Positions 4,247-25,300 of a DNA stretch of 33,034 nt are shown here, piece after piece. The DNA lies in the IMG/VR virus record IMGVR_UViG_3300020442_004113, positions 1 to 33,034 of that record; one strand, given 5' to 3'. The notes beneath the pieces are model-generated. The model did not search any database and was not told where the DNA came from. It was given only the letters and a program-made list of their open reading frames with translations. Position 1 is the stretch's first letter. Each line of letters starts with the position of its first letter. The DNA comes from a virus. A program made the position numbers and the translations under genes.

Positions 4247-7200
4247 TTAGTTCTCTATTAGTACCCAACCTTGAGTGGTGTTGTAATATACCAATCCAAT
4301 ACCCGCTCTGTTAATGTTAATAGTTAGATCGCTTCCGGAACCTTGAATATTATGTCCATTCCGTGCGACTGTAATATTATTTGTTGCTGCATTTCCTGTT
4401 ACATCAATGATTCTAATTTCATCGCCTAAAGATGCAGATGATGGAAGTGTTATTGTTTTTGCCACTGAGGTATCAATAAAGAGTTTATCACCAGCCACTG
4501 CAGTTACAGATGAATCAGTAGGAGCAGACCATGCATTTGTTCTTAAAGTGTTACTGTTACTTACAAAGGATGTAATTTTTATTTCATCATTAGCAAGTGC
4601 ACCAGTTAGAAGTCTAACTCCCATACCATTATTTGCTACATAATCGTCTGAATCATTTAACAATAAACCATTTAAGTGTACTTGAATATTACCTGGGCTA
4701 TATGCAAGACTTTTACCTGTTAAATCATTACCACTGAAAAGTGTTTGTGCAGAATCCGCAGTGAACTTATACAATTCCATATTGTGGCCAGGATTACTAA
4801 ATGCAGATATAACCAATTCATCATTAACCGTTGCTCCACTTGCAAGAATAATCGAAGTGCCATTTACTGCAGTATAATCTGTATTTCTTAACAGAATACC
4901 ATTCAAATAAACTTGTATTGCATCTGCAGTATAAGCTAGTGTATTACCATTAATATCAGCACCACTAAATGTTGTCTGACTTGCAGTTGCAGTATATTCA
5001 TAATTTTTTACAGTAGGAGATACAATTATTCCTTTACGATTAACCAAAGTAACAAGATCACCTGAATCTGTAGCACTTACAAGTGTTACAGTAGTACCAG
5101 CATTTGTAGAATAATCGTCTGAATCTTTGAGCAATATACCATTTAGGAACACGTCAAGAGTACCACTTGAATAATCAAGTGTAATACTATTATCATCTGC
5201 ACCTGTTATGGAAGTAGTGGGTGACGCTGTGGTATAATAATAATTCTGTTGTGTTAATCCTCGTTGGGTAGCGACACGTCCACGCCTTTCAACAATCGAG
5301 ACGCTGTGTCCGCTGTCGACTCCTGTTGTGAAGGTAACTGCGGTTGTAGAGGCATTGTAATCAGTACCGACCACTTGCAAGACGCCATTGAGGTAAACAT
5401 CAAGATGTGTAGGATCAATTGAACTATGAGTAAATGCAGTTTGTGATGCTGTCGCTGTATACTGCGATCTTTGTGTAGTAAATTCTCCACGAGTAAAGTC
5501 CACCTTTGTGCCAATATAATCTGAATCAATTAATTGTGATACGAGAGCAGAATCTAGACCGCTACCTCCTCCACCCCCTCCACCTGAAATGGTAATTGTT
5601 TTTGTTGCACCAGAACCAGATGCAGTTACTCCTGATCCTACAAAATTAAGAGTTGTGGCAGCAGTGGATAATGAACTACCTTCATCTTGAATAGTGAGGC
5701 TTGATCCACCACCAGATTGCCTTAACTGAACATATGCACTGTCAATTAATTGCGTAGTAAGAGCAGAATCCAGACCAGCACTTGATAATTCACTTTGATT
5801 TGCCAGTCTTACCCAATTACCTGCATGCGCAAAGTAACCAGCGCCAGTATTATGAACATGTGCAAACATACCATGATAGGTAGTGGCACTTGGTAATGCT
5901 CCTACTGAATCATATACGTTACCGAAGAGAACTTTGTTCCCTTTCATATCAAGGTCGCCGTTGGTAATTAAAAGTTTGGCATGATCAGAATCAATTATGG
6001 CTGTTATGGCGGAATCTGTTCTTGCCTTATCAATTTCTTGCCAAAGTGGATTACCAGCAAAGAACAAGAAAACATCATTGCCTGAATAATAATCACCAAT
6101 CTGACTAAATCCTATACCAGTGGCCTTTACACCACTCGGATGACTAATGTCTACAAAAGTATTGCCAGTTGTGTTAGCGCTTGCAGTTTTACCAAGAGCA
6201 ACACCACCTGAATTATACCATGTAACTGTACCACCTCCAGGGAAACCATTATCAGCATAGTCCCCATTTTCATAATCAATTCTTTCCAATCGCCCAGCAT
6301 TTGGATCACTATTTTCAATTATAATACCGCGAAGATCTTGTGGAGTAGTAAAGTCATAATCTGCACTTGCGTTTAATGCAGTAGGAGTCAAAGTTGCAGT
6401 AAAGGCAAACCATGCTGATGCAGTTGTACCAGAGGTAAATGAACCTCCGAGTGCATCTGTTCCACTTATATTTGTTCTTGTTGCAGATGATGAATTATTA
6501 CCAGCCCAATCATATATTTTATTATAATGTACAGTACTACTAAGTGCATAACCAGGCATTGTAGTTGAAAGCGCAGAATTTGGTACAGATTTGTAAAGAA
6601 TATCACTATCGGTTTTATACCAATATTCACCCAATTCTGAAATCGTTGGTTGAGTAGGCTGAATGTAATATTTCTTTTTTGCTTTTATTTTAATTATGTC
6701 AAAAATAAAGTCTGAATCAACATCTGCAGTAATAATAGAACTAACAGTTGCTGAATCAGTACCTGCAGCTGTTTGTCTTGCTTGTACATACGCACTATCC
6801 ACAATAGCAAGAATACCGGATGAATCTTGGAATCTATCTCTCAGTTGGATATAAGCACTGTCAACAATAGCCTCTACTGTACCAGAACCTATTCTTGCAT
6901 TAATATATGCACTATCAATCAGGTTAAGGACGTCTGCAGAATCTACACCAGTTGTATTACCACCAAATTTTAATACCGTAAGTTTATCACCACCTTCTGC
7001 AGATGCTGAATCAAGTAAAGTAATTGACGTACCATTTGTTGCGGTATAATCAACTGTATCAAGAAGAAGTATACCATTTAAATAAACAGCAATTGCACCT
7101 GCAGTGTATGATAGTGAATTACCGTTATCATCATTTCCAGAATAAGTTAGTGCACCCGAATCTAGAGTTTTAGTAAAGAACGTTTGTGTAAATGGTGTGG

Positions 7201-9802
7201 AACCAACTGTTGTTTCATTACCACCGAATTTAATTACCTCAAGTACATCTCCACTATCAGCAGCAACTTTTAAATCAACTTTTGATGTGTTATGCGTATA
7301 GTCTGCTTTTGGTAACAATAGACCATTTAGATAAACTTGGAATTTATCAGAATCAATTATTAATCCAGTAAAGGATGATTGGCTAGCAGTAGCAGTGAAA
7401 CTAGTATTTGTCTGTGTAAGAGGCGATGCCGTTTCATTTAATTGTCTTAATTGAATATACGATGAATCAACCAACTGACTAACAAGTGCAGAGTCAAGTC
7501 CACCTCCTCCTCCACCACCAGTTGCATCTGTGGCCAAAATAAATTTTTGTGTGGCAGAATCAAATTTTAATATTTGGTTATGTGTTGCACCAATTGAATT
7601 AACATTACCAATGGCACCAATACTATCAATATTTGTTGCAGTTGTTTGTCTTGCTTGTACATATGCAGAATCAACCGTTGTATTGATAATTGCTGATACC
7701 GTTGCTGAATCCGTACCACCAGCAGCCTGTGATATTGTAATTGTTTTTGTGGTACCGGTACCACTTGCAGTAACTGCAGAACCTACAAAATTAAGTGTTG
7801 TGGCGCCAGTAGAAAGACCAGATCCTTCATCTTGTATTGTAAGTGAATAAGGTGTTGGAGTATTTGTAAAATTATTATAATCCAGGTAAAACGTGCCAGT
7901 CTGACCATCCAAATTATCTGCATCAATATTTAACGCATTAACAAAGGCTTGATCCACGTCTGCAGTAATAACTTGAGAAACACCAGCCGAATCAATAAAT
8001 GTATTAATATCAAATATCCGGATAAGACCATGCATTTGTGCATGATACTGACACTGATAATACAGAAGATCCGGAGCATTCATTGGTACTTCAAAGAAAA
8101 TATCTCCTACAGCAGCACCATTATTAGTAACTCCTGTTGAATATAAACTGCCACTACCAATTACATTATTTGTTTTAATATAAAATGGATGACCAGATGC
8201 ATTAACACTAAACTTGTATTTTAATCCTCTTTGTAAATAAAGTGTAGGATTATTTGTAGCACCTGAGAACCCGTCACCATTAAATGCATATGCACCAGAC
8301 CCGCTATTAACAACCGCAAAGGCGGCCGCGGCAGGTCTACGAATTTGAATATAATTTGAATCAACTGTGCTTGTTACAAGTGAGGAATCTTGGAAACGAT
8401 CTCTTAACTGAATATATGCAGAGTCAACAAGAGCAATAACAAGATCGGATTCTAAACCTTCTGAATTGATAATATTAAGTACAGTTGCAGAATCAACAAA
8501 GTCGTTACCAAATGTTGGTATTGTAGGTGTACTGGTAAAATTATTATAATTTAAATAATATGCAGCATTTTGACCATCAAGTGTGGCAGCATCAACATTT
8601 AATGCATCAACAAAAGCCTTATCAACATCTGCCGTGATCTGAGTTGATACATCTGTAAGATCCAAAATGGTTGGAGCATTTAATACATTATTCCAATCAC
8701 GATAATAGTTACCATGTTGACCATCCAATTTATCAGCATCAATACCACCGACCGTTTTAATATATGCCGAATCTATAATTGCAAGAACACCAGCAGAATC
8801 AACTGTTCCTGTACTAGATTGTCTTGCCTGAATATATGCAGAATCAATTGTTGCAGTAATATCACTTGTTAGTGCTATTGTACCACTTGAATCTGGTAAA
8901 CTAACAGTGTTATCCTTTGTAGGATTAACCGCTTGAATTTTTGTTTCATTACTGTTTGTTGAATCACCTTCGAAGGCAATACTGGTAATACTGTTAATAT
9001 TTTGATCAAGTTCCAGAGTAACATTATTTGCAGCAATACCTGCATTAATTTGGCCAGTTGTTCCTAAAAATGTTAATGTTTCCGTTGAAGGATCAAGTGT
9101 ATGAGTACCAGTATTACCTGCTAAACCAATGGTTGTACCTGACTGTCTTGCCTGTACATATGCACTGTCGATCAGTTGAGTTGTGAGAGCTGAATCTAAG
9201 AAATTATTTTGACGTGCTTGTATATAGGCACTGTCAATAAGATTAACTGCATCTGCAGAATTAAGGAATGGAGCCTCGGCAACACGAGCAAGAACGTATG
9301 CAGAATCTACTTTATCTTCAATCGTGTTATTAATTGTAATTGATACTGTATTGCCTGAATCATTAAGTGAAGCGGCAATATCTGAATCTGCTCTTGCTTT
9401 TGTATAATATAAATTAGAACCTTCAGTAAGGTCACTTGTTGACTTTGCAGCAAAATCTGTATTAAAACCAGTATAATGATCTGCACGTAAATTGACATAT
9501 GCAGAATCAATTAAAGTTGCCAAATATGATTCTGGTATACGAGCTTGAATATATGCAGAATCAATAAGGCCCGTAACCTCACCAGAATCCAATTGTGCAA
9601 GTGCAATAACCTCAACAGCATTTGCAATTGCTTCTACTCTTGCAGAATCAACAAATGCCTTGATTTGATTACTACTATTTTTATAATAAATTTTGCCGTC
9701 AGCAAAGTTAACGGCAAGTTCACCGTAATCTAAATCACTAGTTGTTGGTACTTTACCTGCAACGGAAGACCGTTTAAGTAGAACTTTTGGTGTTACTGCC
9801 AT
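4247..9802 (-). CDS. Giant modular tail fibre with cupredoxin-like domain
   Basis: 1851 residues. The start VLLKRSSVAGKVPTTSDLDY ... GELAVNF is the usual N-terminal module of marine T4-like fibres. Sixteen DS[A/N/S/D]Y[IV] motifs follow along its length, most as DSAY[IV]Q-x-R. Other parts are three LDGQ...Y[YF]LDYNNF repeats, a cupredoxin-like domain near residues 497-595, two copies of a TIQDEGSxLS...TKTITIS module, glycine runs, six YLNG beta repeats, a large unique middle section, and a TYHGMFAHVHNTGAGYFAHA segment. The last 100 residues (TLPSSASLGDEIRIIDVTGN ... QGWVLIEN) are a common fibre end cap. An AGGA site lies 6 bases before the ATG and a late promoter box precedes it. It is inferred to be a host-recognition fibre or long shaft. 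Confidence 0.88.
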   Translation of the reverse strand: MAVTPKVLLKRSSVAGKVPTTSDLDYGELAVNFADGKIYYKNSSNQIKAFVDSARVEAIANAVEVIALAQLDSGEVTGLIDSAYIQARIPESYLATLIDSAYVNLRADHYTGFNTDFAAKSTSDLTEGSNLYYTKARADSDIAASLNDSGNTVSITINNTIEDKVDSAYVLARVAEAPFLNSADAVNLIDSAYIQARQNNFLDSALTTQLIDSAYVQARQSGTTIGLAGNTGTHTLDPSTETLTFLGTTGQINAGIAANNVTLELDQNINSITSIAFEGDSTNSNETKIQAVNPTKDNTVSLPDSSGTIALTSDITATIDSAYIQARQSSTGTVDSAGVLAIIDSAYIKTVGGIDADKLDGQHGNYYRDWNNVLNAPTILDLTDVSTQITADVDKAFVDALNVDAATLDGQNAAYYLNYNNFTSTPTIPTFGNDFVDSATVLNIINSEGLESDLVIALVDSAYIQLRDRFQDSSLVTSTVDSNYIQIRRPAAAAFAVVNSGSGAYAFNGDGFSGATNNPTLYLQRGLKYKFSVNASGHPFYIKTNNVIGSGSLYSTGVTNNGAAVGDIFFEVPMNAPDLLYYQCQYHAQMHGLIRIFDINTFIDSAGVSQVITADVDQAFVNALNIDADNLDGQTGTFYLDYNNFTNTPTPYSLTIQDEGSGLSTGATTLNFVGSAVTASGTGTTKTITISQAAGGTDSATVSAIINTTVDSAYVQARQTTATNIDSIGAIGNVNSIGATHNQILKFDSATQKFILATDATGGGGGGGLDSALVSQLVDSSYIQLRQLNETASPLTQTNTSFTATASQSSFTGLIIDSDKFQVYLNGLLLPKADYTHNTSKVDLKVAADSGDVLEVIKFGGNETTVGSTPFTQTFFTKTLDSGALTYSGNDDNGNSLSYTAGAIAVYLNGILLLDTVDYTATNGTSITLLDSASAEGGDKLTVLKFGGNTTGVDSADVLNLIDSAYINARIGSGTVEAIVDSAYIQLRDRFQDSSGILAIVDSAYVQARQTAAGTDSATVSSIITADVDSDFIFDIIKIKAKKKYYIQPTQPTISELGEYWYKTDSDILYKSVPNSALSTTMPGYALSSTVHYNKIYDWAGNNSSSATRTNISGTDALGGSFTSGTTASAWFAFTATLTPTALNASADYDFTTPQDLRGIIIENSDPNAGRLERIDYENGDYADNGFPGGGTVTWYNSGGVALGKTASANTTGNTFVDISHPSGVKATGIGFSQIGDYYSGNDVFLFFAGNPLWQEIDKARTDSAITAIIDSDHAKLLITNGDLDMKGNKVLFGNVYDSVGALPSATTYHGMFAHVHNTGAGYFAHAGNWVRLANQSELSSAGLDSALTTQLIDSAYVQLRQSGGGSSLTIQDEGSSLSTAATTLNFVGSGVTASGSGATKTITISGGGGGGGSGLDSALVSQLIDSDYIGTKVDFTRGEFTTQRSQYTATASQTAFTHSSIDPTHLDVYLNGVLQVVGTDYNASTTAVTFTTGVDSGHSVSIVERRGRVATQRGLTQQNYYYTTASPTTSITGADDNSITLDYSSGTLDVFLNGILLKDSDDYSTNAGTTVTLVSATDSGDLVTLVNRKGIIVSPTVKNYEYTATASQTTFSGADINGNTLAYTADAIQVYLNGILLRNTDYTAVNGTSIILASGATVNDELVISAFSNPGHNMELYKFTADSAQTLFSGNDLTGKSLAYSPGNIQVHLNGLLLNDSDDYVANNGMGVRLLTGALANDEIKITSFVSNSNTLRTNAWSAPTDSSVTAVAGDKLFIDTSVAKTITLPSSASLGDEIRIIDVTGNAATNNITVARNGHNIQGSGSDLTININRAGIGLVYYNTTQGWVLIEN
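4553..5475 (-). repeat. Four tandem YLNG-type beta repeats
   Basis: Four consecutive repeats of about 70-75 residues carry the cores DVYLNGVLQ, DVFLNGILL, QVYLNGILL and QVHLNGLLL, each followed by a DY element and a strand ending in a conserved V/I-x-x-F or V/I-x-R-x-G. Two more copies lie at about 6950-7430 in the same gene and three in the fibre at 1-1858. Boundaries are approximate. Confidence 0.75.
8018..8314 (-). other. Cupredoxin-like domain in the giant fibre
   Basis: At residues about 497-595 of the 1851-residue fibre, GHPFYIKT (H538) is followed 46 residues later by LLYYQCQYHAQMHG (C584, H587, M590). Plastocyanin uses H37, C84, H87 and M92, so the His-to-Cys spacing (46 against 47) and the C-x2-H pair match. 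The methionine comes two residues sooner than in plastocyanin. The body between (GVTNNGAAVGDIFFEVP) fits the beta-barrel pattern of the family. Whether it binds copper is inference; it could be a fold kept only for structure. Confidence 0.65.
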
Positions 9803-11715: not shown

Positions 11716-12267
11716 TTATATTCCAAAAATCATAAATCGGTTATATTTTTCTAATTCAAGTGTATGTTTCTCCAAAATTTTTATGTTAATACTTTTTGCA
11801 AATTCATCACAATCTTGTTTACAATTAATGTGATCTGCAATATTATAATAATTATTGCTTTGTAAAACAACTAAGGCAGAATCCTTTTTTCTTTGAATAA
11901 AACAGTTAATAACATCATCGGTAATGTGTTCACAGGATGTACAAATAATAACATCATAATCCCATGGATCAAAGTCTTCAATTTTACTGGTACGATATTT
12001 TACATTTTGAAATAATTTTACTTTTTTACAATTATCGTCCATGTCAAATGACACAACATTACGATCGAGCATATGTGCAGTAAGACCATGCCATCCGGCC
12101 GCTACAACAATTTTAGGATCGGATAACATGTCCAAATAAGGTTCTAAATTTTCACACAGCCATTCTTTATTTTTTATTTGGTTAGAATTAACCGAATTTG
12201 CAATATCTTTTATCAGATATATATCATTACACGACTGAATTTTATCTATAGCATTTTGTAAGATCAT
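11716..12267 (-). CDS. Methyltransferase-like protein (Rossmann type)
   Basis: 183 residues. VVAAGWHGL (residues 54-62) resembles the SAM-binding glycine loop, VVSFDMDDNC (71-80) gives the acidic residue after strand 2, and YDVIICTSCEHITDD (from about 104) fits strand 4 with its following motif. This suggests a class I SAM-dependent methyltransferase, although the loop is not the textbook GxGxG. The start codon overlaps that of the divergent glycosyltransferase: both share the bases of CATG at 12265-12268. A TATAAATA box lies only 9 bases before the ATG. Its location at the edge of the plus-strand cassette suggests that it acts with it, perhaps methylating a sugar or protein. The substrate is unknown. 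Confidence 0.6.
   Translation of the reverse strand: MILQNAIDKIQSCNDIYLIKDIANSVNSNQIKNKEWLCENLEPYLDMLSDPKIVVAAGWHGLTAHMLDRNVVSFDMDDNCKKVKLFQNVKYRTSKIEDFDPWDYDVIICTSCEHITDDVINCFIQRKKDSALVVLQSNNYYNIADHINCKQDCDEFAKSINIKILEKHTLELEKYNRFMIFGI
12198..12225 (+). promoter_or_regulatory. Weak candidate sigma-70-like promoter for the plus cassette
   Basis: TTGCAA at 12198-12203, a 16-base spacer and TATATC at 12220-12225 lie 40 bases before the first glycosyltransferase, inside the methyltransferase-like gene. No plus-strand TATAAATA was found near it. The stretch is so AT-rich that chance matches are easy. Confidence 0.2.
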
Positions 12268-13159
12268 GACAAGAATTATTTATAGCCTTTATATTGACAT
12301 ACCTGATAATGAATTAGATTGGCAACCACCTTTTTATGGTGAAGATGAACCTAAAAATTCCAAGGCTAAAAGATTATTTAAGGATTACGAAAATTGGATT
12401 AAACAAAGACATATTGAATATGCAAAAGCATGTAACATAGAATATAGATTATATGAATATGATTCAGATTATATAAAATATAAAAAAATGTTTAATGAAA
12501 AATATCCTATGATCACCTCATATAACATAGTTAATTTTTATAAAATACATTTATTATATAAATTGGCAAAACAATATGATGAAATACTTTATATAGATTT
12601 TGATGTTATTCCAGTATCAAATAAAAACTTTTTTGATTATTGGGATTTATCAAATGGTGTTGCAATACTTACAAACAGAAAGCACATCGATACATCTTAT
12701 TCCGGAATATTAAGTGATAAGGCACGACTATTAAAAAACCCAATATCAAATAGATCACCGACTGCAAAATATTGGAATGCCAGAGCAATGCTCGTGGAGG
12801 CAAATGCATCTGGCATTAATGATGTTTATAATACAGGTATCGTAGGTATTACCGCAAAACAATTAAAGCAATTGGATTATTGGGGAAATTTTAATTCAAC
12901 ACTTGCACTTATGACTGAATTAAAAAACGATGAATTTAGTATGTATCCAGAACACATTCAACGTATATTTGGTTGGGACAATGAAACAATATGGTCATAT
13001 AAAATGTCAATTAATAAAGTTGAAAAACAATGGTTAAATGAAAAGTGGCATCATTTTATGGACAAATGGAATTATGTGCCAAAAGGAACAAATTTGGTAC
13101 ATGTAATTAATAAGGAATTTGGATACGTAAGGGAATGGTGTGAAAAGAATAATTTATAG
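12266..13159 (+). CDS. GT-A glycosyltransferase-like protein, copy 1
   Basis: 297 residues. The start MTRIIYSLYIDIP is followed by a helical segment and then YDEILYIDFDVIPV, where D111-F-D113 is the DxD motif that in GT-A enzymes holds the metal and the nucleotide-sugar. VYNTGIVGI (near residue 190) is the second conserved loop usual in such enzymes, and HHFMDKWNYVP...HVINKEFG is a probable C-terminal metal-site region. It is cytosolic, with no signal or membrane segment. Its N-terminus, DxD block and NKEFG end are shared with the next gene, so the two are tandem duplicates. It heads the plus-strand operon and has no clear ribosome site. Donor and acceptor are unknown. Confidence 0.75.
   Translation: MTRIIYSLYIDIPDNELDWQPPFYGEDEPKNSKAKRLFKDYENWIKQRHIEYAKACNIEYRLYEYDSDYIKYKKMFNEKYPMITSYNIVNFYKIHLLYKLAKQYDEILYIDFDVIPVSNKNFFDYWDLSNGVAILTNRKHIDTSYSGILSDKARLLKNPISNRSPTAKYWNARAMLVEANASGINDVYNTGIVGITAKQLKQLDYWGNFNSTLALMTELKNDEFSMYPEHIQRIFGWDNETIWSYKMSINKVEKQWLNEKWHHFMDKWNYVPKGTNLVHVINKEFGYVREWCEKNNL
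12277..12284 (-). promoter_or_regulatory. Late promoter box inside the first codons of the divergent gene
   Basis: An exact TATAAATA on the minus strand, 9 bases before the ATG of the methyltransferase-like gene. On the plus strand the same bases encode the IIYS of the glycosyltransferase. A transcript from here would have almost no leader. The paralogous glycosyltransferase also has IIYS but its codons do not give the box, so the box is not forced by the protein. Confidence 0.5.
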
Positions 13160-13925
13160 CATTTATACATCAACGGTAGATCCACATAAATCATCTACCG
13201 ATTATAAAAAAATGCAATTTGAAAAATACAAATATAAACTGGAAAAGTCTCAAAGAGATTATGCCAGTTTATGTAATGCTGATTACGATTTGGAAATAAC
13301 AACTGAAACAAATTATGATATTATACAATTTAATAAAATTAAAAAACTTGAACATTTTGCACAATATTATGATGAAGTATTATATTTAGATTTTGATGTC
13401 GTGCCTGTTACAAAGATAAACATATTTGAACACTTTGATTTTAATACAATATGTGCATTTGCCATAGATAGAACTCCACCAAAAAAACATTTTCAATGGG
13501 CTCTTGAAAATGATGCATTTGATGATATGAATATGTATTGTAAAACATGTGCAAAAAATGCAATGCTTTTATTGGATGATATTATGGGAAACCCTTTGGT
13601 AATTAACACTGGGGTTATAGGTGGCAATAAAAATGCAATTAATTTATTAAATTTTACAAGTCGGTTTAAAATGATGGTAAATAAATTGTATGAGGCAAAA
13701 GATGACAATCTTTATCCAAATGAAATAAATAAGGTATGGAAACCAAATAACGAAATATTCGTATCTTATCTTATAGAAAAATTTAATATTCCATTTACAA
13801 ATATTCAATTACAATGGAATTTTTTAATTGATAAAATATCACCTGTTCCATCACCCGGTGCACATATGTGGCATCATGTTAACAAAGAATTTGAGTTAAG
13901 TTTTAATGTACACATGGAAAAATAA
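13140..13925 (+). CDS. GT-A glycosyltransferase-like protein, copy 2
   Basis: 261 residues from a GTG at 13140, chosen because KRIIYSIYT then aligns with TRIIYSLYI of the copy upstream and because AAGGGA lies a few bases before it. YDEVLYLDFDVVPV carries D84-F-D86, the GT-A metal motif. NPLVINTGVIGGNKNAINLL corresponds to the NTG loop of copy 1, and HMWHHVNKEFELS to its C-terminal His region. The middle contains a unique Cys pair (YCKTCAKN) not present in copy 1. It overlaps copy 1 by 20 bases and the radical SAM gene by 20 bases. The family is supported by motifs; the sugar and acceptor are unknown. Confidence 0.75.
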   Translation: MKRIIYSIYTSTVDPHKSSTDYKKMQFEKYKYKLEKSQRDYASLCNADYDLEITTETNYDIIQFNKIKKLEHFAQYYDEVLYLDFDVVPVTKINIFEHFDFNTICAFAIDRTPPKKHFQWALENDAFDDMNMYCKTCAKNAMLLLDDIMGNPLVINTGVIGGNKNAINLLNFTSRFKMMVNKLYEAKDDNLYPNEINKVWKPNNEIFVSYLIEKFNIPFTNIQLQWNFLIDKISPVPSPGAHMWHHVNKEFELSFNVHMEK

Positions 13926-15018
13926 AGACCTAAAATTAATTTTGGATATTAGCACATATTGTAATGCCAAATGCCCTCAATGTTCACGTACAGACTCCAA
14001 GTCAGGTGGACTAAAAAGAGAGGATTTTGTACCACTGGTACATTGGTCATTACCTGAAATACAATTGGCATATCCTAAAGAACAATTAAAAGATGTTTTC
14101 TATATACAGTTGTGTCCCACATGGGGTGATGCAATGATGAATCCAGAAATTTATGAAATTACAAAATATTTTTTGGAAAATATGAAATCAGGATCTGGAT
14201 TTGAAATTGTTACAAATGGGTCTATGAGAGATGAGGATTTTTGGTTTGATTTTTCAGCTTTAGGAATTATTGCAAAAGCAAAAAACATGCGTTTTACGGT
14301 TATGTTTGATGTGGATGGAATTACTCAAGAAATGCATTCACATTATAGAAGAAACACAAATTTACAAAAAGTGCTTAATAATATGAAGGCATTTTCATCT
14401 TATCCTGTTAATATAACACGCACACAATCAGTAATATTTAAACATAATCAGGATTATACAGCAGAAATAAAAAAATTGGCACATGAATATGGTAGTCAAG
14501 ATCATTCATTTGTAAAAAGTTCTCGTTTTGAACTTGATGATAATGGTAATTACATGCCATGGGAATTTAAAAATGAAAATAATGAAACAGAATATTATGA
14601 GTGGGCTGATAAACCTTTTAAGGAACCATATATGTCACTTATACAAGATATGAATATCATACAAGAAAAAGTTGCATGTAAATGGTCAATTAACAATACA
14701 TTAAATATTAATTTTGATGGACAAGTATGGCCATGTTGTTATTTTGGTTCTGCTGATTATTCTGCACCCAGTACAAAGAGTAAATTTAATAGTCATGAAA
14801 TAATTCAAGAATACAATCTTAAAAAGTTACACTATAATGTTAAATTTACTCCGCTTAGGGATATAGTTAAATCATATTGGTATACAACCAGTCTACCGAC
14901 AACAATTGATAGTGAACCAATTCCGCAATGTTTAAGGCAATGTAGTACTCAAGTAAGACCTGCAGATAAATTGGAAATAAGATCTAAAAAAGGAGTGGGA
15001 AATGATACAGTTGCGTAA
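13906..15018 (+). CDS. Radical SAM protein with SPASM/twitch-like C-terminus
   Basis: 370 residues. C19-x3-C23-x2-C26 (STYCNAKCPQCSRT) is the canonical site for the 4Fe-4S cluster that cleaves S-adenosylmethionine. GDAMMNPEIYEI resembles the GGEP-type region, and the body fits a TIM-barrel layout. The C-terminal part has further cysteines, C258, C277-C278 (VWPCCYF), C342 and C346 (QCLRQC), a pattern like the auxiliary-cluster domain (SPASM or twitch) of enzymes that modify peptides or sugars. The start at 13906 places the Cys motif at a normal distance from the N-terminus. It overlaps both neighbours. Substrate is unknown; company with glycosyltransferases and an oxygenase points to glycan or peptide tailoring. 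Confidence 0.8.
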   Translation: MYTWKNKDLKLILDISTYCNAKCPQCSRTDSKSGGLKREDFVPLVHWSLPEIQLAYPKEQLKDVFYIQLCPTWGDAMMNPEIYEITKYFLENMKSGSGFEIVTNGSMRDEDFWFDFSALGIIAKAKNMRFTVMFDVDGITQEMHSHYRRNTNLQKVLNNMKAFSSYPVNITRTQSVIFKHNQDYTAEIKKLAHEYGSQDHSFVKSSRFELDDNGNYMPWEFKNENNETEYYEWADKPFKEPYMSLIQDMNIIQEKVACKWSINNTLNINFDGQVWPCCYFGSADYSAPSTKSKFNSHEIIQEYNLKKLHYNVKFTPLRDIVKSYWYTTSLPTTIDSEPIPQCLRQCSTQVRPADKLEIRSKKGVGNDTVA

Positions 15019-15961
15019 AGGAGAACTATATCCTTCAATACAAATAAAAGATGCAATTCCTAGATCTCTTATTGACAGTGTTGTAGAGGCAGCAAAGGAA
15101 TTTGAAAATGAATTTATTCAATATTTTCTTGATAAAAGTCTAGACGATTACAGGGTATATGAAATAGCTTTTTGGTTTACAGAAGATGATTTTCATATTA
15201 ATTCAGCAATATACTATACGCACACTGGAAAAACATGGAAACATCGTAAGGACGATGATTTAGAATTTGCAGTATTGGCTAAAGAATATGAAGAAAATTT
15301 TTCTGCGCTAAAGGAAGTCCGTTTACATCTATTGGATGTACTTAAAAAAAATAACAGACCTGGTAATGTAACTCAACTTACCTATTTTAATTTTGATACA
15401 GGATTTCCAGCACATACAGATTCACTGGATGTAAAAAATAAATATGCACCAAGGCCTGAAACATGGGATATTCCAAAGGAGCAATATTGGCCAAATCCTA
15501 ATTATGATAATGTGCAGCAAGGTTTAATTAATCTTAATGCCCCTGCTACAAATGGTACTGTAATGTTTGACCAATGGTATCCATGGTCAGTATATTATGA
15601 ATACGATATAAAACTTGAAGATGCAGACACCGCTAAATTTTCATCATTATACAAAGGTAAAAAATATATTTACTTTTTTAAAGATGAAGAGCCTTACAGA
15701 TTTGGAGAGAAAATTAGAAATTTTACTGGTAATGAATTTCCAGAACAAGATTATAAAGATATACTACAATATTGTGACGGCGAAGAAATACGCAGAAATC
15801 AAGTTGACGGTTTATCACTTGAAAAAATGTTATTCTTTGATACACCCGGTACAGTAACATCTTGGGATACACGTAGATTCCATATGCCAATTCCATTTAA
15901 AAGAAAAATGAACGATAATAGAATGACATTACAATATTTTGCAGAGGAATTATGCGAGTAA
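15002..15961 (+). CDS. 2-oxoglutarate/Fe(II)-dependent oxygenase-like protein
   Basis: 319 residues. H138-T-D140 (FPAHTDSLD) and the distal H294 (TRRFHMPIPF) form the 2-His-1-carboxylate iron site, and R307 (NDNRMTLQYF), 13 residues after the distal His, fits the 2-oxoglutarate-binding position. GLINLNAPATNGTVMFD is the usual strand between. This is the layout of prolyl-hydroxylase-like and related dioxygenases, several of which occur in marine phages. AGGAG lies 6 bases before the ATG, the best ribosome site in the cassette. It overlaps the radical SAM gene by 17 bases and the next gene by 10. It probably hydroxylates a peptide, sugar or small molecule; which one cannot be told. Confidence 0.72.
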   Translation: MIQLRKGELYPSIQIKDAIPRSLIDSVVEAAKEFENEFIQYFLDKSLDDYRVYEIAFWFTEDDFHINSAIYYTHTGKTWKHRKDDDLEFAVLAKEYEENFSALKEVRLHLLDVLKKNNRPGNVTQLTYFNFDTGFPAHTDSLDVKNKYAPRPETWDIPKEQYWPNPNYDNVQQGLINLNAPATNGTVMFDQWYPWSVYYEYDIKLEDADTAKFSSLYKGKKYIYFFKDEEPYRFGEKIRNFTGNEFPEQDYKDILQYCDGEEIRRNQVDGLSLEKMLFFDTPGTVTSWDTRRFHMPIPFKRKMNDNRMTLQYFAEELCE

Positions 15962-16533
15962 TATGTGTTAATACTGGAGACAAATATGATCACTGGTATG
16001 TTGAAAATTTAAAATATATGATAGATGAATACTCTGGTTTAAAGTATGATTCATTTGAAATTATTGATTGGGAAATATATGGAGGTGTTTATGATAAATT
16101 ACAAATGTTTAGTAGATTTAAAGATGGCCAGAATATTTACTTTGATTTAGATGTTTTAATAAAAGGTGATTGCAATAAATTTCTAAAAAAGGAATTTACC
16201 GTATGTTATGCCTGGTGGAGAGATGCATGGCACACACCCTTAAATTCATCTATTATATCTTGGTATGGAGATGTATCACACATACATGATTATTTTGTAG
16301 AACAATTGGATTATCATCTTTTAAAATATCATTTAGGTATTGATCAATATCTATATGAAATTTATAACCCTAAAACATATAGAATCTGGCTAGATCCTCA
16401 TACAACTCGTTATGATTACTGTTCTTTTCAAACAGTAACAGACGAACAAGATTATGACGTTTATTTATTTAATCAGAGGTATGAATGTATGAAAACTACG
16501 CAGTGGTGCCAACGGTACTTTCTACAATCTTAA
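15952..16533 (+). CDS. Small GT-A glycosyltransferase-like protein
   Basis: 193 residues. NIYFDLDVLIKGD has D65-L-D67 in the place of a GT-A DxD motif, and the start MRVICVNTGDKYDHWYVENL followed by GGVYDKLQMFSRF fits the donor-binding fold. It is short for a full glycosyltransferase and differs in sequence from the two copies upstream. An AGAGGA site precedes the ATG, which overlaps the oxygenase gene by 10 bases. Its 3' end overlaps the opposing gene tail to tail by 38 bases, so the last 12 codons are fixed by both frames. Activity is inferred from the motif only. Confidence 0.65.
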   Translation: MRVICVNTGDKYDHWYVENLKYMIDEYSGLKYDSFEIIDWEIYGGVYDKLQMFSRFKDGQNIYFDLDVLIKGDCNKFLKKEFTVCYAWWRDAWHTPLNSSIISWYGDVSHIHDYFVEQLDYHLLKYHLGIDQYLYEIYNPKTYRIWLDPHTTRYDYCSFQTVTDEQDYDVYLFNQRYECMKTTQWCQRYFLQS

Positions 16534-17002
16534 TTGAGATTTTTAATGCCTCTAAAATTGTAGTTGATTTTCTTAAACTTGCCTTTAAATTTTTATCTTT
16601 ACATTCTCTAATTTGTGGGACTTCAAATAATTGGATTTTTAAAATAAAAAGTTTTTCCTTATCCTTTTCTGGATCAAAAGGTTCAAAAAAAGCCTTGGCA
16701 AGTGCTTTATAAATGTCAGTATTTACTGCATCAATATCATATATTAAGCCACGTTCCTTAGCAACTTCTATAACTTGATTTTTAAATCCAGCATCTAATT
16801 GTTTTAAATATTGCCAAGTATTTTCGTGTAATTGATCAATTGATATGTCTTTTAATAGTGCTTCCCACTTAGGATTACCTTCTTCAGCAACAATGTGTTC
16901 AATCCATTCTGATTCTTGGTCTGGAGTTTCACGAACAATTCCTACAACAGTTCTTTCATTGTTTGTAAAATATGCTGTGATAAAATCTTTTTCCATAATC
17001 AT
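16496..17002 (-). CDS. Conserved-looking acidic helical protein, unknown function
   Basis: 168 residues from the first ATG, but the second ATG at 16996 (MEKDFITAYFTNN) is the likelier start: GGAG is 2 bases from the first and 8 from the second. It is mostly helical and charged, with an ERGLIYDIDAVNTDIYKALA segment and a KEKLFILKIQLFEVPQIREC segment. It looks like a family I associate with structural regions of marine T4-like phages, without known function. It closes the minus-strand run before the inserted cassette and overlaps the last plus-strand gene by 38 bases. No catalytic motif is visible. Confidence 0.65.
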   Translation of the reverse strand: MIMEKDFITAYFTNNERTVVGIVRETPDQESEWIEHIVAEEGNPKWEALLKDISIDQLHENTWQYLKQLDAGFKNQVIEVAKERGLIYDIDAVNTDIYKALAKAFFEPFDPEKDKEKLFILKIQLFEVPQIRECKDKNLKASLRKSTTILEALKISIKIVESTVGTTA

Positions 17003-17009
17003 TACTCCG

Positions 17010-18188
17010 TTATATAAATTGGTTTTCCGTATATGCCTTCAAGCCATATGTGTTTCCTGTTACATATGTTCCATTTGGAAAATCTTGTGTTCTATAATCA
17101 TCACCAGTATATTGTGTATTTACTGTTGTTTGTCCTGATGATATTTCATTAATAATTGAAGAACCTACTGTAACTGGTGTTCCAAATGATTGTGTAACAC
17201 CAACTTCTTCTATATACCAAACCAGTTTACCTGAACTACCACCTAATGAATTTGTATAACCATTTGCTGCAATGGATTGTGCAGCTTGTTCAAAATATTG
17301 TTGCATACCAGCCAAACCCCATTCTTGTAGTGAACCATCGGTATTTGCATATACCAAATTTTTAGGTGTATCTACTGTGGTTGGTGTATTCATTTCATAT
17401 AAATTCCATTGATTAGCAGTATTAATTGCAACTGGTCTGTCCAAAGTAGTATCACCTGCAGTACCGGCGCCTCCCGGACCACTATAACCACTTACACCTA
17501 CACTTACAGTATCTTCAAATACTCTACCAAGATCAGTAAATCCAGCAGCGTCATCATGGTTGGTAGTAGGAATTTGATCTTGTCTGAATATAGCATATCC
17601 ACCAATTCTTCCTACAGTCATTGCAGGGCCAGTATCATTTGTGTTTACAAAATGTGCAGATGATCCACCGACCTCTCTAATTGCTTCTGCAATTAATTCC
17701 CAAACCTCTATTTGTGAATATTCCCTAATTTTATATACACCGCCAGAATATTCAACTCTTATTGGAAAACTCCTACCAGGACAAAAATCAAAAATGGACG
17801 GTAAGGCAATAGAGGTATCATATGTAAGATCTATTTTTTGCCATGTTGTAGTAACCGTAGTTGTATTTGGAGCACCTGGAAATGAACTTACATTAGTTGC
17901 GTCTGCCCCGGCCACCAAACGTGTATCATACATTGGAGTTAAATTACCTGTATTTCCTGAATTGTATGAAAGTGTTACAGTTTTATTTCTTGCCCAAAGG
18001 TAACGAATCCATTTTTTAAATGCTCTAAATTCTGCTGTAGTCATTTCCCTTAAGCCGTGTGCACCACCTTTGGTATTTAATCCATAAAAATCAAAATTTG
18101 TAAGGGTAGCGCCAGTGTCTTTAAGAAAAACATCTCTGTGATCAACAACAAGAGGCCTATGAGCAGAGTAGGGAGTTGTGCGTGTCAT
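17010..18188 (-). CDS. Virion structural protein of unknown role
   Basis: 392 residues. The N-terminal part (HRPLVVDHRDVFLKDT ... LREMTTAEFRAFKKWIRYLW) is followed by a beta-rich, Gly/Thr-rich body with no membrane segment or catalytic motif. AGMQQYFEQAAQSIAANGYT and KLVWYIEEVG lie in the C-terminal third. The ATG overlaps the stop of the preceding gene as TAATG. Between the paired adaptor-like proteins and the small acidic protein, it probably belongs to the baseplate or a fibre-attachment collar. I do not recognise a T4 counterpart. Confidence 0.65.
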   Translation of the reverse strand: MTRTTPYSAHRPLVVDHRDVFLKDTGATLTNFDFYGLNTKGGAHGLREMTTAEFRAFKKWIRYLWARNKTVTLSYNSGNTGNLTPMYDTRLVAGADATNVSSFPGAPNTTTVTTTWQKIDLTYDTSIALPSIFDFCPGRSFPIRVEYSGGVYKIREYSQIEVWELIAEAIREVGGSSAHFVNTNDTGPAMTVGRIGGYAIFRQDQIPTTNHDDAAGFTDLGRVFEDTVSVGVSGYSGPGGAGTAGDTTLDRPVAINTANQWNLYEMNTPTTVDTPKNLVYANTDGSLQEWGLAGMQQYFEQAAQSIAANGYTNSLGGSSGKLVWYIEEVGVTQSFGTPVTVGSSIINEISSGQTTVNTQYTGDDYRTQDFPNGTYVTGNTYGLKAYTENQFI

Positions 18189-20259: not shown

Positions 20260-21837
20260 TTAAACGCTCAATGCAATAACTCTTAAATCCTTAAATACTG
20301 GTATCTTTACACGATCAGTGGATCTCATTACAATTTTTACCTGGAATTGTGTAAATTCCTTAAGGTCGCCACCTAAACCTCCAGCCAAATATTCGTATTC
20401 TCTAAATGTCGAATAATCTTCATCTGTTGGATTATTACTACTGGTAGGTATGAGTACATAATCCACATCTCTAAGATCAATACCCTCTTCAGCAGTTCTA
20501 ATATATACGTCAAAATTTGCCCCGGCCGGTCTATTTGCAGAGAATAAAATTTTCAAACCTACTGCAGGTTCAACCAATTCTATTAATCTTGTAATGTGTT
20601 TTGCTGCAGCTGAACCTCCACGGGCATTTGTTTCATTTACAAAATTTATTGGAACATTAAATCCTACAGTTGCAGCGGAATCCTGATTATCAATTAATAC
20701 GTCAACCAATGTAACGGATGATCTTTGTAAATCAAGCATTGGTGAAACTTTACTGTCGTCTGTATTAATTAAAAATTTTTGTTCAAATGATTTAACACCT
20801 GCACCAAGTTCGGAAGTTTCAATTGCATCATTCATTACAACAAAAGGTTTTCTTTCCACAATAGTTTCGTGAATTCCAGCCTCTAAGTAATTTGGTTCTT
20901 GTACATATGGTGTTTCAGTTCCAGCAAATGATTTACCTCTGACTGGTTTATACGATGGATAGCATGCAGTATTATCTGGTTTTAATATTTGACTATTGTT
21001 ATAATACACACCAAATGGAATATTTTTGGTAACTAAACATCCATTTCCACCACCAATTGCATCACTATCTGCAGACGAATCTGCAGTAATATTATACCCA
21101 GACCAATCAACTGCAGATATTGTTTTTGCAGCACCCATAATACTTGTTGTTTTAATACCACCAATTGTTTGTGCTGAATCTAATCCTCTTATTGTAACTG
21201 GATCATTTACAACAAATCCATGTCCAGTATCATATATTCTTACTGTATCACTTCCTGAGGTTGTTTGTATTGGATTTGATTTTAATAATTTTTGTGGTAA
21301 GGATCCATTTTTAAGAACAATTTCACCATTGACAAGGCTATCAAATTCTGCCCTGTATATTTTAAATGTTAAATCTTGATCCTGTGATGCCGTAAACGTA
21401 CCACCATTGGCTGAATAGAAAAGTGATCCAAGAGCCGGATTACGTGCAACACGACCAGCGGTTGTACCTATTTCAAACTCATCGATTTGTGCAATATATA
21501 TTTCATACTCGTCACTATTAGTAATAACCACTATTGCATAATCGTGTGATCCTATAAGATATAACGGTTCTTCAAATTCAAAACTAGTTGCTGCAGTGGC
21601 ATCTGCAGATATATTAACATTAGAACCATTTACGTAAACCGTTGATTGTGGTATAATTTCTGAAGTAGAAGGAAATCCATTTACCATTGGTCTAATTTGA
21701 AGACAAACTGGAGAGGTTGTTACCCGCGATTTAAAAAACAAATCAACCTTCGTAAGATAAATACCATTGGTATCCTCTACAAAAAAAGATTGTGCAATTG
21801 GATTTCTGTTTATTTGATATCCTAGCGAAGTTGCCAT
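20260..21837 (-). CDS. Large virion structural protein
   Basis: 525 residues. The start GYQINRNPIAQSFFVEDTNG, followed by YLTKVDLFFKSR and LQIRPMVNGFPSTSEIIPQS, is a pattern I associate with a conserved baseplate-region protein of marine T4-like phages. The body is beta-rich; the C-terminus (YEYLAGGLGGDLKEFTQFQV then STDRVKIPVFKDLRVIAL) looks like a closing sandwich domain. No enzyme motif or membrane segment is visible. AGAGGA lies before the ATG. It follows the Hint-bearing protein and the GNAT gene, and probably assembles beside the former on the baseplate periphery. The T4 counterpart is unclear. Confidence 0.68.
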   Translation of the reverse strand: MATSLGYQINRNPIAQSFFVEDTNGIYLTKVDLFFKSRVTTSPVCLQIRPMVNGFPSTSEIIPQSTVYVNGSNVNISADATAATSFEFEEPLYLIGSHDYAIVVITNSDEYEIYIAQIDEFEIGTTAGRVARNPALGSLFYSANGGTFTASQDQDLTFKIYRAEFDSLVNGEIVLKNGSLPQKLLKSNPIQTTSGSDTVRIYDTGHGFVVNDPVTIRGLDSAQTIGGIKTTSIMGAAKTISAVDWSGYNITADSSADSDAIGGGNGCLVTKNIPFGVYYNNSQILKPDNTACYPSYKPVRGKSFAGTETPYVQEPNYLEAGIHETIVERKPFVVMNDAIETSELGAGVKSFEQKFLINTDDSKVSPMLDLQRSSVTLVDVLIDNQDSAATVGFNVPINFVNETNARGGSAAAKHITRLIELVEPAVGLKILFSANRPAGANFDVYIRTAEEGIDLRDVDYVLIPTSSNNPTDEDYSTFREYEYLAGGLGGDLKEFTQFQVKIVMRSTDRVKIPVFKDLRVIALSV

Positions 21838-21846
21838 ATCATTCCT

Positions 21847-22308
21847 CTACCTTTGGTCTTTTTCCCACTGTTCATCATCCTGTACAAATTCAAAATCAGT
21901 GTATGAATTATTAACATCTTTCACAAAAGTTCTTACACTATTTTCGGTTAATTTAAAACCGTGCAATCTTGTATATCTTTTCATCAATGAATCATCAGAT
22001 GTATTAGTAAAAATTAATTTATAACCTTTATTATCAACTAGTTTTATTAACTCATCAATACATAACTGTATTGCCTTATGTGAATCTTTCAATGATGCAT
22101 TCTTGTCCTTAACAAGCCAGTCCATCATACAAAATTTACAGCCTTTTCCAAAATATACACCGACTGCACAAATTGGTTTATTATCATTTTCTACAATAAT
22201 ACCATCAGGTGGTAACAGTTCCTGTGGTACTACTCCAAACTCCCATTCGTTCCACCATTTTTTTAGTGTGTCATAATCACTGTCTAATTTCCATTTGCGC
22301 ACTTTCAC
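21847..22308 (-). CDS. GNAT-like acetyltransferase
   Basis: 153 residues. The layout fits a single GNAT fold: an N-terminal strand and helix (KVRKWKLDSDYDTLKKWWNE), the central strands GIIVENDNKPICAVGVYFG and CKFCMMDWLVKD, a helix (SHKAIQLCIDELIKLVDN), then KLIFTNTSDDSLMKRYTRLH and GFKL, the usual acetyl-CoA-proximal end. The Q/R-x-x-G-x-G/A loop is not clear, so catalysis is uncertain. The start lies inside the 3' end of the Hint-bearing gene (32-base overlap). Such genes occur in marine phage structural clusters; modification of a virion protein is a guess. Confidence 0.55.
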   Translation of the reverse strand: MKVRKWKLDSDYDTLKKWWNEWEFGVVPQELLPPDGIIVENDNKPICAVGVYFGKGCKFCMMDWLVKDKNASLKDSHKAIQLCIDELIKLVDNKGYKLIFTNTSDDSLMKRYTRLHGFKLTENSVRTFVKDVNNSYTDFEFVQDDEQWEKDQR

Positions 22309-25300
22309 TATTTAATACCCTTTCGCATATTGCATCATCTTCCTCAATGGTATCTTGCCATTCATCAAAGTATTTATCACCTTTTTCCAATAATAATTCT
22401 TGCGCACTAATTTCAAAATAATCAGTAAATAATATTCCTTCAATCAGAAGTCTACGTTCCTCTGTTCCAAAGTTATAAACCACAACAGTTTCATCACTAA
22501 TTGGTACACCATGTTTTGTATCTTTAACGCGCGTCCAATGGCCATCCTCGTAAACCATATGGCTTCCAGATACCTTAACACCTTTATAATCGTGTAAATC
22601 ATTACTAAGGAATTGGCCACATGCAAATACCATACCACCAACCGCTACTCGATCTCCAAGTTGTACAGTTTCAACTGCCTTAAATGTTCCATCTTCCATT
22701 TCAACCATTGTGCCTGCTAAGAAACATGTACCACCACCACTACGACCTTTCATTGCCTCTTGTGCGTGATAATTACCTTGTGCAATTGCAGCACCTTTAG
22801 CTCCTGTTGATCCAGTTCCTTGATAATATGTTTCACCTTTGTGCGAGTGTTCCTTACCGCCACCACCATAATTGTTGTTAGGTGGATAATAACGATTTTT
22901 GCTGGATCTTTGATGTTCAACATTTAAAACACGAGTTGATTTTATTGTTTGATCAACCGTGTCCAAATAACCAGTCGCTGCATAGAGAGCAGTAGCAATT
23001 GTTCCACTTGTCTTTTTATTACCGCCACTTACATCCAAAATCATAAATTCTTGGATTCCTGTACGGAATCTAATTGCATTTGTATTTGGTATAAAGAATG
23101 AACCTTCGACTGCACCATTTGCATCAGTAATTAAATCAGTTGAACCTTCAGGATGAGCGACTGCATTACTCTGTGTATTACCATAATCTTTATGATCATC
23201 AGACATATTCTGGAATGTTTCTTCTCTTACAAATGCATCAACTCTCACTCCATCAAAATATGCAAATACCTTTGAATCAGGTCTTAAACCTTCAGCCTTA
23301 AAATATACTTTCCTTGATCTCATAAATGGTATTAATGCAATATCAATTACCCTTTGATCGATCACTTCAAGTAATGTTTCTTCCGAAACAACTTTATTTA
23401 CATTTGAATGTATTTTAGTTGAAGTGGTTTCTGTTTTAGTGTTTGTTGTATCACCTACCTTAAGATCCTCAATATTTTTTCCACCCCAATTCCACTGCCA
23501 GTTATTCCACAAATATGCCTGGGTTGTATCAAGTTTTGTACCACCGTCAACCATTTTCTTTGCACGAACATTTATTTCTCGCCATTCATCAGATGATGGT
23601 GAAAGTTTAATATCGCCTATGTAGATAACAGCTTCAAATGGATTAATTCTTATTGATCTAGATGCTTGTGCCTGTGAAATGTATTCAACTTGACTGTGTT
23701 TTAAATAAACATTATCACCTTTCTTAATTACATTTGATGATGCATCTGAATCGTAAATAAGTCTTACATTATCCTCGTTAAATGTTGGAACCATAAAATT
23801 CATTTGTGGATCAATTGATGCTCTATATTCAGGATTTTTTGTATCACTGAAAAGTTGAGTTGAAAAATTATCCACGAAGAATCCTGACTTGGTTCTATCT
23901 AAACCTGAGGAATCAAAAATTTGGAAATTCTTGGTATCAATTTCCAAAAGGCTAAGTGCAATCATTTCCTCATTACGATCAACTCTATCCTCAAGTCTTG
24001 CAATGTCTTTCATTGTGTATCTACGATGATCAATTTTTTGTATTAACAAATCAGAATCATTAAGAGTATTAGCACCAAAGAAAATATCATATAAAGGTAA
24101 ATTATTTGGAGGAGTAGATGGAGGTGACGGTGAGAATGAAGCATCGCCTTTACGAAGCACTAAAACACCATCTGGATTAATTGTTAATATTGCCCTTTCC
24201 GGCAAGTAATATGAAATATCTGCTTGTACAGTATCATTAACCTCAGGTAATTCATTAATTCTAGCACCTTTTGCAGCATTATCAAATTCACCATCAGAGT
24301 CCATAACTGATCTGAAATCAATTACATTTCTTAAATTGTGTTCTTGACCATTTGAAAGAAATACATTTTGAATTTTATCATAATCAACTTGACCTGTATA
24401 AGAATTAATTGCAAAGAAATCACCATTTGCACCATGTGCAAAATATTCATATCTTACAAAAGCCGTGGTTGGTGCTGAATTACCAGGTATAAGTTTAAGT
24501 GAACCAAGAGCATAGAAATTATCCCTTTGGCCATTATCCAGTTCGTATCTTCCAGAAATATCAAGACCGTCTGAATCACCAATCGTTACTCTTTTTATAT
24601 TAAAAATATCTGCCTTACCAAGTGGAATATTTCCATTACCATCTGGCGCCACTGTAATTGTTGTTTCAGTTTTGGTTTTACTTCTTACAAGACCAATTGA
24701 TTTATTAACAAAAGCAAGAATTTCATATGTTGTTGTGGCATTTAAACCTGTAATATTAGCAGCAACTTGGCCTACAGGACTTGATGCAAATGTAAGTGCA
24801 GTGTTTAATATGTCATCACCAGCCGGTGCAACTATCCAATCCGCAGTATTTGCAAATGTCTCACCACTTGCTGTAAGTGAAAGGGATGCGGCTCCTGCAC
24901 CATCAGTTGTTACTTGAAATCTTCTTTGTGTTGTAAGACTAATATCATCTAGGGCTTGAGGTCTACTTTTAGGTAATTGAAAAATTAAATTATTTTTTGT
25001 AACTTCTTTTAGTTCTGCTTTACTGAGTGGTCTATAAAGATTAAAATAATCACTAGTTGAAAGGCCAATACTTTGTACATTTCTAAAGTTTTGTCCAGAA
25101 TTCATTTGAATATCGAAAAGATAAAACCGAAGGAAATTACCAGTATCTCTTACAATCTGCCGAACGCGTGCAGTACCAATACTATTACCAGTCCAGCCAG
25201 TAGCGTCTTTTAAGGTTAATTTATCAAAATTATTAATATCAGGCATACCAGCAGTATTATTGGATGTACCGTTATCAACCAATACATAATTACCAAAACC

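Follow-up and report, generated by a model that had tools for sequence, protein, structure and literature searches.

The window, by which we mean the whole 33,034-nucleotide stretch of the virus record IMGVR_UViG_3300020442_004113, carries a run of five overlapping plus-strand ORFs surrounded by long minus-strand structural genes. Both the run and its opposite-strand setting had been pointed out in a preliminary description of this DNA, and both were confirmed, with successive overlaps of 20, 20, 17, and 10 bp. The relevant features are as follows.

11716-12267, minus strand: MT, a SAM-methyltransferase-like protein of 183 aa; a frame gene, here divergent from the cassette
12265-12268: CATG in which the minus-strand start codon of MT and the plus-strand one of GTa overlap
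12266-13159, plus strand: GTa, a predicted GT-A glycosyltransferase of 297 aa; the cassette's first frame gene
12277-12285, minus strand: CTATAAATA, a T4-type late-promoter motif for MT, within the GTa coding sequence
13140-13925, plus strand: GTb, a second glycosyltransferase of 261 aa and paralog of GTa
13906-15018, plus strand: a radical SAM core fused to a SPASM-type half, 370 aa
15002-15961, plus strand: a putative 2OG-Fe(II) oxygenase of 319 aa; orphan cargo gene
15952-16533, plus strand: GTc, a small glycosyltransferase-like protein of 193 aa; last frame gene
16496-17002, minus strand: dn, a conserved, island-closing gene of 168 aa with 38 bp of its 3' end inside GTc
17010-18188, minus strand: fib5, a fiber-like protein adjoining the island
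20260-26386, minus strand: a VrlC-like baseplate protein, as two ORFs separated by one of 153 aa; bounds the host recognition cluster on one side

A methyltransferase-like gene had also been placed at the edge of the operon. MT does adjoin the cassette, but because it lies on the minus strand and shares its start CATG with GTa, it does not belong to the plus-strand run. The same -2 spacing is also present in loci L003 and L114. The island is flanked by baseplate wedge genes and by the VrlC-like ORFs, whose matches are Mosig_100 and phrog_358. It sits next to VrlC within a structural region of T4 type, and its gene content is not syntenic between loci.

The host recognition cluster of pelagimyophages has been described as a hypervariable island in which glycosyltransferases, radical-SAM cassettes, and fiber genes lie beside VrlC, and editing of the host surface is the published inference for it (Zaragoza-Solas et al. 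2020, PMC7029224). The cassette belongs to this cluster of pelagimyophage-like T4 relatives, as the cluster passages of that paper describe it. The proposal that the genes form an undescribed system was therefore partly right: an island with these enzyme classes was published in 2020, but those passages do not include the MT-GTa-cargo-GTc-dn frame, split or fused radical SAM/SPASM enzymes, SPASM-glycosyltransferase proteins, or oxygenase cargo. The other border of the published cluster is the neck gene gp14; none was identified in the window, and the 33-kb record ends on that side. Pelagimyophages infect SAR11; for the window, a SAR11 host is a possibility raised by its relatives. The island of Pelagibacter phage Mosig EXVC030M (MT647606, genes 82-95) holds homologous MT, GTa, GTc, and dn genes and a split radical SAM enzyme in the same place, with carbamoyltransferase, DegT aminotransferase, MoaA-like, and nitroreductase genes as cargo. 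MT is co-directional in Mosig, whose island has neither GTb nor the 2OG gene.

The same layout recurs across a comparison set of 115 non-redundant loci: MT, GTa, variable cargo, and GTc are followed by the convergent small gene dn and then by fiber genes. MT is immediately upstream of GTa in 77 of 95 loci, and dn closes the run from the opposite strand in 58 of the 85 closed runs within the set, so the synteny beside fiber genes that had been proposed as a check is indeed conserved. Wherever the flank suffices, the module lies beside fiber or baseplate genes and not with replication genes. The 85 closed runs nevertheless hold 43 different interiors, and the exact five-gene set of the window occurs among them once. 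We therefore consider the set to be one state of a shuffling module rather than a fixed pathway; the end genes are widely shared, whereas the middle genes are exchanged from phage to phage. Cargo found elsewhere includes a carbamoyltransferase, a DegT aminotransferase, and an epimerase, which are typical of glycan decoration. Thus, of the earlier idea of a self-contained pathway for an unusual modification, a glycan-modifying role survives and the self-contained five-gene pathway does not, given the many interiors and an oxygenase for which no search found a relative.

The low local G/C content noticed earlier is real. The island has 29.3% G+C compared to 35.7% in the rest of the window, and 60-base windows at or below 18% G+C number 167 of 4,209 in the island and 11 of 27,624 elsewhere. 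However, base-shuffled versions of the island reach a similar minimum (13%, against an actual 11.7%), third-position G+C is alike in the cassette (0.18-0.20) and the structural genes (about 0.17), and G+C is lower in the homologous island than in the fiber genes at 47 of 47 loci. The low G+C content is therefore a family trait rooted in amino-acid content and bears no mark of recent import.

A late-promoter motif, TATAAATA, lies upstream of the fiber genes and of MT in the window, and the only exact occurrence of CTATAAATA in the window is the one for MT. Where MT is the first gene of a run, TATAAATA lies upstream of it in 17 of 32 loci; elsewhere it does so in 3 of 59, against 0.8% at random. 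No such motif was found on the cassette strand, an absence that carries weight as a consensus argument only. A scan for sigma-70 promoters gave no useful excess over shuffled sequences, and a terminator scan found none.

GTa is assigned by structure. Its AlphaFold2 model (pLDDT 95.3) is confidently of the GT-A fold, with the PBCV-1 capsid glycosyltransferase (2p6w) as the best match (Z of 14.4 over 188 residues), Z values of 11.9 to 13.3 to LgtC, xyloglucan xylosyltransferase, and LARGE1, and a Foldseek E value of about 1e-5; a sequence-profile search of the PDB gave no match. The DxD residues D111 and D113, a metal/nucleotide-sugar motif, are invariant in 52 relatives. The only relative in a named phage infects HTCC1062. 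GTa is absent from SAR11 chromosomes, the one match among 297 being a mis-binned phage contig, and it is thus a phage tool; other apparent bacterial matches were likewise rejected as mis-binned phage contigs. GTb is 27% identical to Mosig_91, has a conserved DxD, and is a GTa paralog representing an old lineage in the second position. Putative glycosyltransferase is a reasonable name for GTc, which is 51% identical to Mosig_94 over 140 aa, has invariant D65 and D67 residues, and by profile matches the DxD-bearing GT9 family and, weakly, the GT-A enzyme NleB (E value of 0.011). A direct profile link between GTa and GTc covers the DxD region only.

The radical SAM enzyme matches Pfam PF04055 above the cut-off (1.5e-7) and the Pfam SPASM family below it (0.0013, 19.5 bits against 21.5). 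Its CX3CX2C cluster motif (C19, C23, C26) and SPASM auxiliary-cluster cysteines (C258, C277, C278, C342, C346) are invariant in 16 relatives. In relatives the enzyme is often split, with the core adjoining the SPASM half in 34 of 36 cases, and in six loci the SPASM half is fused to a glycosyltransferase (SPASM-GT9), which ties the radical enzyme to a glycosyltransferase. A search of viral contigs with the radical SAM protein alone found nothing. Fifteen of the 18 top matches among its closest SAR11 relatives lie in surface-glycan loci with NeuB or CMP-sugar synthase, compared to 1 of 14 control regions, and such sialic-acid-type loci point to a sugar substrate. Two SAR11 nonulosonic-acid loci (L190 and L191) share the enzyme family, the sugar context, and an overlapping gene order with NeuB, CMP-sugar synthase, and SIS isomerase, but they are chromosomal, and the phage islands lack NeuB and CMP-sugar synthase. 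Because the phage and SAR11 enzymes are only 22-25% identical, a common context need not imply a common substrate.

Naming of the genes in the preliminary description thus stands for the radical SAM enzyme (by Pfam) and GTa (by structure) and is reasonable for GTb and GTc, whereas the 2OG-Fe(II) oxygenase is a putative assignment from motif only. This single sequence contains H138-x-D140, H294, and a distal R307, as in a facial triad plus arginine. Family searches gave no match, its single-sequence structure model has a pLDDT of 37, and no relatives were detected in phages at an E value of 10, in 289 genomes from the same class as G001, or locally. Viral matches L161-L165 were rejected as relatives, being unrelated proteins, nucleotide-binding by eye, that match over short chance stretches.

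MT has no match in Pfam, but a profile built from 38 relatives finds SAM methyltransferases and spermidine synthases of solved structure (4.8e-5 to 2e-4 across approximately 100 residues), and the protein is 27.8% identical to Mosig_90. The dn protein is 31% identical to Mosig_95 and co-varies with GTa beyond the backbone (partial r of 0.63). Most of the 82 relatives of fib5 share the C-terminal motif DDYRxQ(E/D)FPxG. An N-glycosylation sequon there was rejected, as the FPNGT form occurs in only 24 of 82 and many others have D instead of N. Collagen-type hydroxylation was likewise rejected because there are no Gly-X-Y repeats, and the window's fibers show no excess of sequons. Mantel tests of enzyme-fiber co-evolution had a mixed outcome. 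In the 35-locus test, none of GTa, GTc, and MT follows fib5 beyond the backbone (partial r of 0.03-0.06), whereas in a smaller test of 22 loci GTc tracks the fiber genes beyond VrlC (partial r of 0.36-0.50). The island enzymes have almost no membrane-spanning segments, and the cassette encodes neither a membrane nor a lipid-carrier enzyme; it is therefore unlike gtrABC-type seroconversion, with its membrane flippase and bactoprenol-linked glycosyltransferase, which counts against editing of the host surface.

Starting from the established gene order, modular exchange, catalytic motifs, and modeled GT-A fold of GTa, we tentatively favor, at a little short of an even chance, a glycan-editing module in a pelagimyophage-like T4 relative whose acceptor is most likely a host surface glycan. 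The frame enzymes GTa, GTc, and MT, together with swapped-in cargo (in the window GTb, the radical SAM/SPASM enzyme, and the putative oxygenase), would build or alter a carbohydrate inside the infected cell. The soluble glycosyltransferases may move sugars from host nucleotide-sugars, the radical SAM/SPASM enzyme with a glycosyltransferase could change a sugar carbon (for example by epimerization or dehydrogenation), and MT and the oxygenase might cap or hydroxylate the sugar. If the host's surface glycan is altered in this way, neither sister phages nor released progeny would bind any longer. The enzymes would share the fibers' cluster because the fiber chooses the receptor, and the absence of late motifs from the cassette strand, while fiber genes bear them, also counts for this reading.

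The host surface is a somewhat likelier target than the virion. Decoration of the virion is a possibility that we lean against, in which the enzymes attach and trim a modified sugar on fiber or baseplate proteins during assembly, tuning receptor binding or hiding the phage from host binding proteins. It is suited equally well by the island's place among fiber genes and by the fold nearest to that of GTa, which belongs to a viral virion glycosyltransferase. This best structural match of GTa, PBCV-1 A64R, in which GT-A and O-methyltransferase domains linked to capsid glycosylation are joined (PMC4691112), mirrors the GTa-MT pair, although it comes from a eukaryotic algal virus, is about 15% identical, and has fused domains and another neighborhood. 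Mimivirus L230 likewise pairs a glucosyltransferase with a hydroxylase, and the soluble enzymes without lipid-carrier partners and the 22-locus result agree with decoration. However, the 35-locus result, fibers lacking collagen repeats or sequon excess, a cassette strand lacking late motifs, and the host relatives of the radical enzyme in surface-glycan loci do not.

Doubtful is a modular radical-SAM glycan-editing machine of marine T4-like phages whose core, detachable SPASM half, and glycosyltransferase recombine in split and fused forms, so that each phage would write its own unusual sugar on receptor or fibers. SPASM enzymes generally act on peptides, and the radical enzyme has its best NCBIfam matches, which fall far short of the cut-off, among peptide or protein maturases. 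It is nevertheless unlikely that this enzyme and the oxygenase act on a peptide or protein in the style of RiPP or sulfatase maturation before glycosylation, as the overlapping run has no intergenic space and no precursor ORF of at least 40 aa, the host relatives lie in glycan loci, and the best solved relative, cytosylglucuronate decarboxylase, acts on a sugar. Similar enzyme mixes occur in phage DNA modification, but hypermodification of phage DNA by these glycosyltransferases, radical SAM enzyme, and oxygenase for restriction evasion is highly improbable because family searches found no Tet/JBP or other nucleic-acid-modifying family and the module does not adjoin replication genes.

If the module does edit a recognition glycan, it would be a tangible set of exchangeable genes underlying host range and superinfection exclusion in kin of the phages of SAR11, which is among the most abundant groups of ocean bacteria. 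The SPASM-glycosyltransferase fusions would offer a direct route to radical-enzyme action on sugars, and the frame-and-cargo description allows the published “hypervariable island” to be tested one gene at a time.

In this virus record of 33,034 bases, five plus-strand ORFs lie within 12266-16533, surrounded by long structural genes on the minus strand, and their successive overlaps of 20, 20, 17 and 10 bases bear out the preliminary description of an overlapping run amid structural genes of opposite orientation. The methyltransferase-like ORF (MT) placed at the edge of this operon does adjoin the first glycosyltransferase gene (GTa), but it is encoded on the minus strand. The genes of the island and its borders are as follows.

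11716-12267, minus strand: MT, whose start codon has CATG in common with that of GTa
12266-13159, plus strand: glycosyltransferase GTa
13140-13925, plus strand: glycosyltransferase GTb
13906-15018, plus strand: radical SAM/SPASM enzyme
15002-15961, plus strand: putative 2OG oxygenase
15952-16533, plus strand: glycosyltransferase-like protein GTc
16496-17002, minus strand: convergent gene (dn), overlapping GTc by 38 bases

The low local G+C first counted by hand is also real (29.3% for the island versus 35.7% for the rest). Because third-position G+C in the cassette (0.18-0.20) equals that of the structural genes (about 0.17), and because 47 of 47 related loci likewise have an island lower in G+C than their fibre genes, the dip is due to amino-acid content and is no evidence for recent acquisition.

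Among 50,697 phage records, the sole match to GTa, GTb and GTc is Pelagibacter phage Mosig EXVC030M. This phage has homologues of MT (28%), GTa (40%), GTc (51%) and dn (31%) at the same site, whereas the cargo between them differs. IMG/VR was then represented by the best 80 of 177 stretches matching a GTa alignment and the best 80 of 217 matching a GTc alignment, yielding 115 non-redundant loci with the window and Mosig counted in. The five-gene order, for which a search had been proposed, was found as an exact set only once among 85 closed runs, but its borders recur: MT is immediately upstream of GTa in 77 of 95 loci, and dn terminates 58 of the 85 runs on the opposite strand. GTc is present in 64 of these runs and is the last gene in 52. 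GTa is present in GTa-derived loci by construction, which does not apply to how the other genes are ordered. The closed runs have 43 distinct interiors, and same-strand neighbours overlap in 274 of 318 cases (median 13 bases). Locus L006 has the window's run minus the 2OG gene. The GTa sequences fall into a single well-supported group (92 sequences), and GTb comprises two older lineages that both hold the second position. GTa, GTc, MT and dn diverge in a correlated way beyond what the baseplate protein VrlC, taken as the backbone, accounts for (partial r 0.34-0.63, 35 loci).

Several features of the neighbouring structural genes were also recorded. The VrlC-like protein (20260-26386, minus strand) is split into 1369 and 525 aa, unlike the single 2045-aa ORF of Mosig. 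A 153-aa ORF (21847-22308), acetyltransferase-like by eye and without a Pfam match, lies between the parts; the same family intervenes in two other loci (L003 and L074), and other relatives are split without it. The fibre-like protein fib5 (17010-18188, minus strand) and 81 relatives conserve a C-terminal motif, DDYRAQEFPxG...TYYLxIxKS, which is perhaps an attachment or trimerisation tag, and are otherwise variable. The 1851-aa product of 4247-9802 (minus strand) matches the baseplate wedge-fibre connector family phrog_677 only at residues 225-598.

An AlphaFold2 model of GTa (59 sequences, pLDDT 95.3) shows a GT-A fold. In structural comparison it comes closest to the PBCV-1 glycosyltransferase A64R (Z 14.4, 188 residues, 3.2 A), followed by xyloglucan xylosyltransferase, LARGE1, UGGT and LgtC, and DxD residues 111 and 113 are invariant. 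GTc likewise has an invariant DxD; it weakly matches the GT-A protein NleB and is linked by profile comparison to a second DxD-bearing family, called GT9 here after its cluster number in this analysis. Remote profile matches make MT a putative methyltransferase. The putative 2OG oxygenase was named for the motif H138-x-D140, H294 and R307; family and homologue searches with this protein, phages and bacterial genomes included, turned up neither a family nor a relative.

The radical SAM protein carries a CX3CX2C motif, and five of its cysteines towards the C-terminus are invariant. Related phages mostly encode the core (about 236 aa) separately from the Cys-rich SPASM-type half, which adjoins a short core in 34 of 36 cases. 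In six loci this half, immediately following a short core, is fused to the GT9 N-terminus, an arrangement that connects a glycosyltransferase with the radical enzyme.

SPASM-GT9 fusions
L033:13133-14218
L119:7579-8706
L061:14716-15807
L110:8924-9982
L059:13586-14671
L035:7122-8273

Campylobacter phages CP220 and F379 each have three places that match the window's radical SAM protein (best about 26% identity).

GTa was absent from 297 SAR11-order genomes, except for one mis-binned phage contig, and each of its ten matches among 84,980 bacterial and archaeal species is either a phage contig or next to the same phage genes. The radical SAM enzyme does have host relatives. A NeuB-family or CMP-sugar synthase gene lies within about 8 kb in 15 of 18 loci picked from the top profile matches, versus 1 of 14 controls (12 weaker radical SAM matches and two arbitrary regions). 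One SAR11 locus (L191) has a run of CMP-sugar synthase, NeuB, SIS isomerase and radical SAM/SPASM genes. Since NeuB synthesises sialic-acid-type sugars, the host members of this family work in surface-glycan loci. This context favours a sugar substrate for the window's enzyme but, at only 22-25% identity, falls short of proof. In the SAR11 sialic-acid-type loci L190, L191 and L183, the radical SAM/SPASM gene overlaps the SIS isomerase gene.

All eight TATAAATA motifs in the window are on the minus strand, with none on the plus strand, and seven are 8-45 bases ahead of a minus-strand gene.

TATAAATA before genes, minus strand: 1875, 9831, 11703, 12277, 18865, 29014, 32359

The motif of MT is 10 bases before the gene, within the GTa coding region. 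Across loci, MT has TATAAATA ahead of it in 17 of 32 cases where it begins a run, as against 3 of 59 where it does not; for GTa or GTb the figure is 6 of 38 cases where either is first (background, 0.8% of random 100-base pieces). TATAAATA is the late-promoter motif of T4-like phages, and with this placement the fibre genes and MT look late-expressed; the window's cassette is probably driven by another promoter class.

Together, the enzymes, layout and host context point to a glycan-editing module. Editing of the virion is a somewhat less likely reading, with strong points in its favour: the cassette position, the solubility of the enzymes, and viral precedents for a glycosyltransferase partnered by a methyltransferase, as in A64R, or by a hydroxylase, as in Mimivirus L230 (PMC4691112). 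We tentatively prefer editing of the host surface glycan, as already put forward for this island in PMC7029224, because of that proposal and the glycan-locus context of the host relatives. Furthermore, the cassette is without the late motif, and co-variation of the enzymes with fib5 is not robust, being absent in the 35-locus set and present in a smaller 22-locus set. The island type is known, and the undescribed system first suggested is only partly borne out; what is added here is the rule of a shared frame around variable cargo, the split or fused radical SAM/SPASM-glycosyltransferase architecture, and the putative oxygenase cargo.
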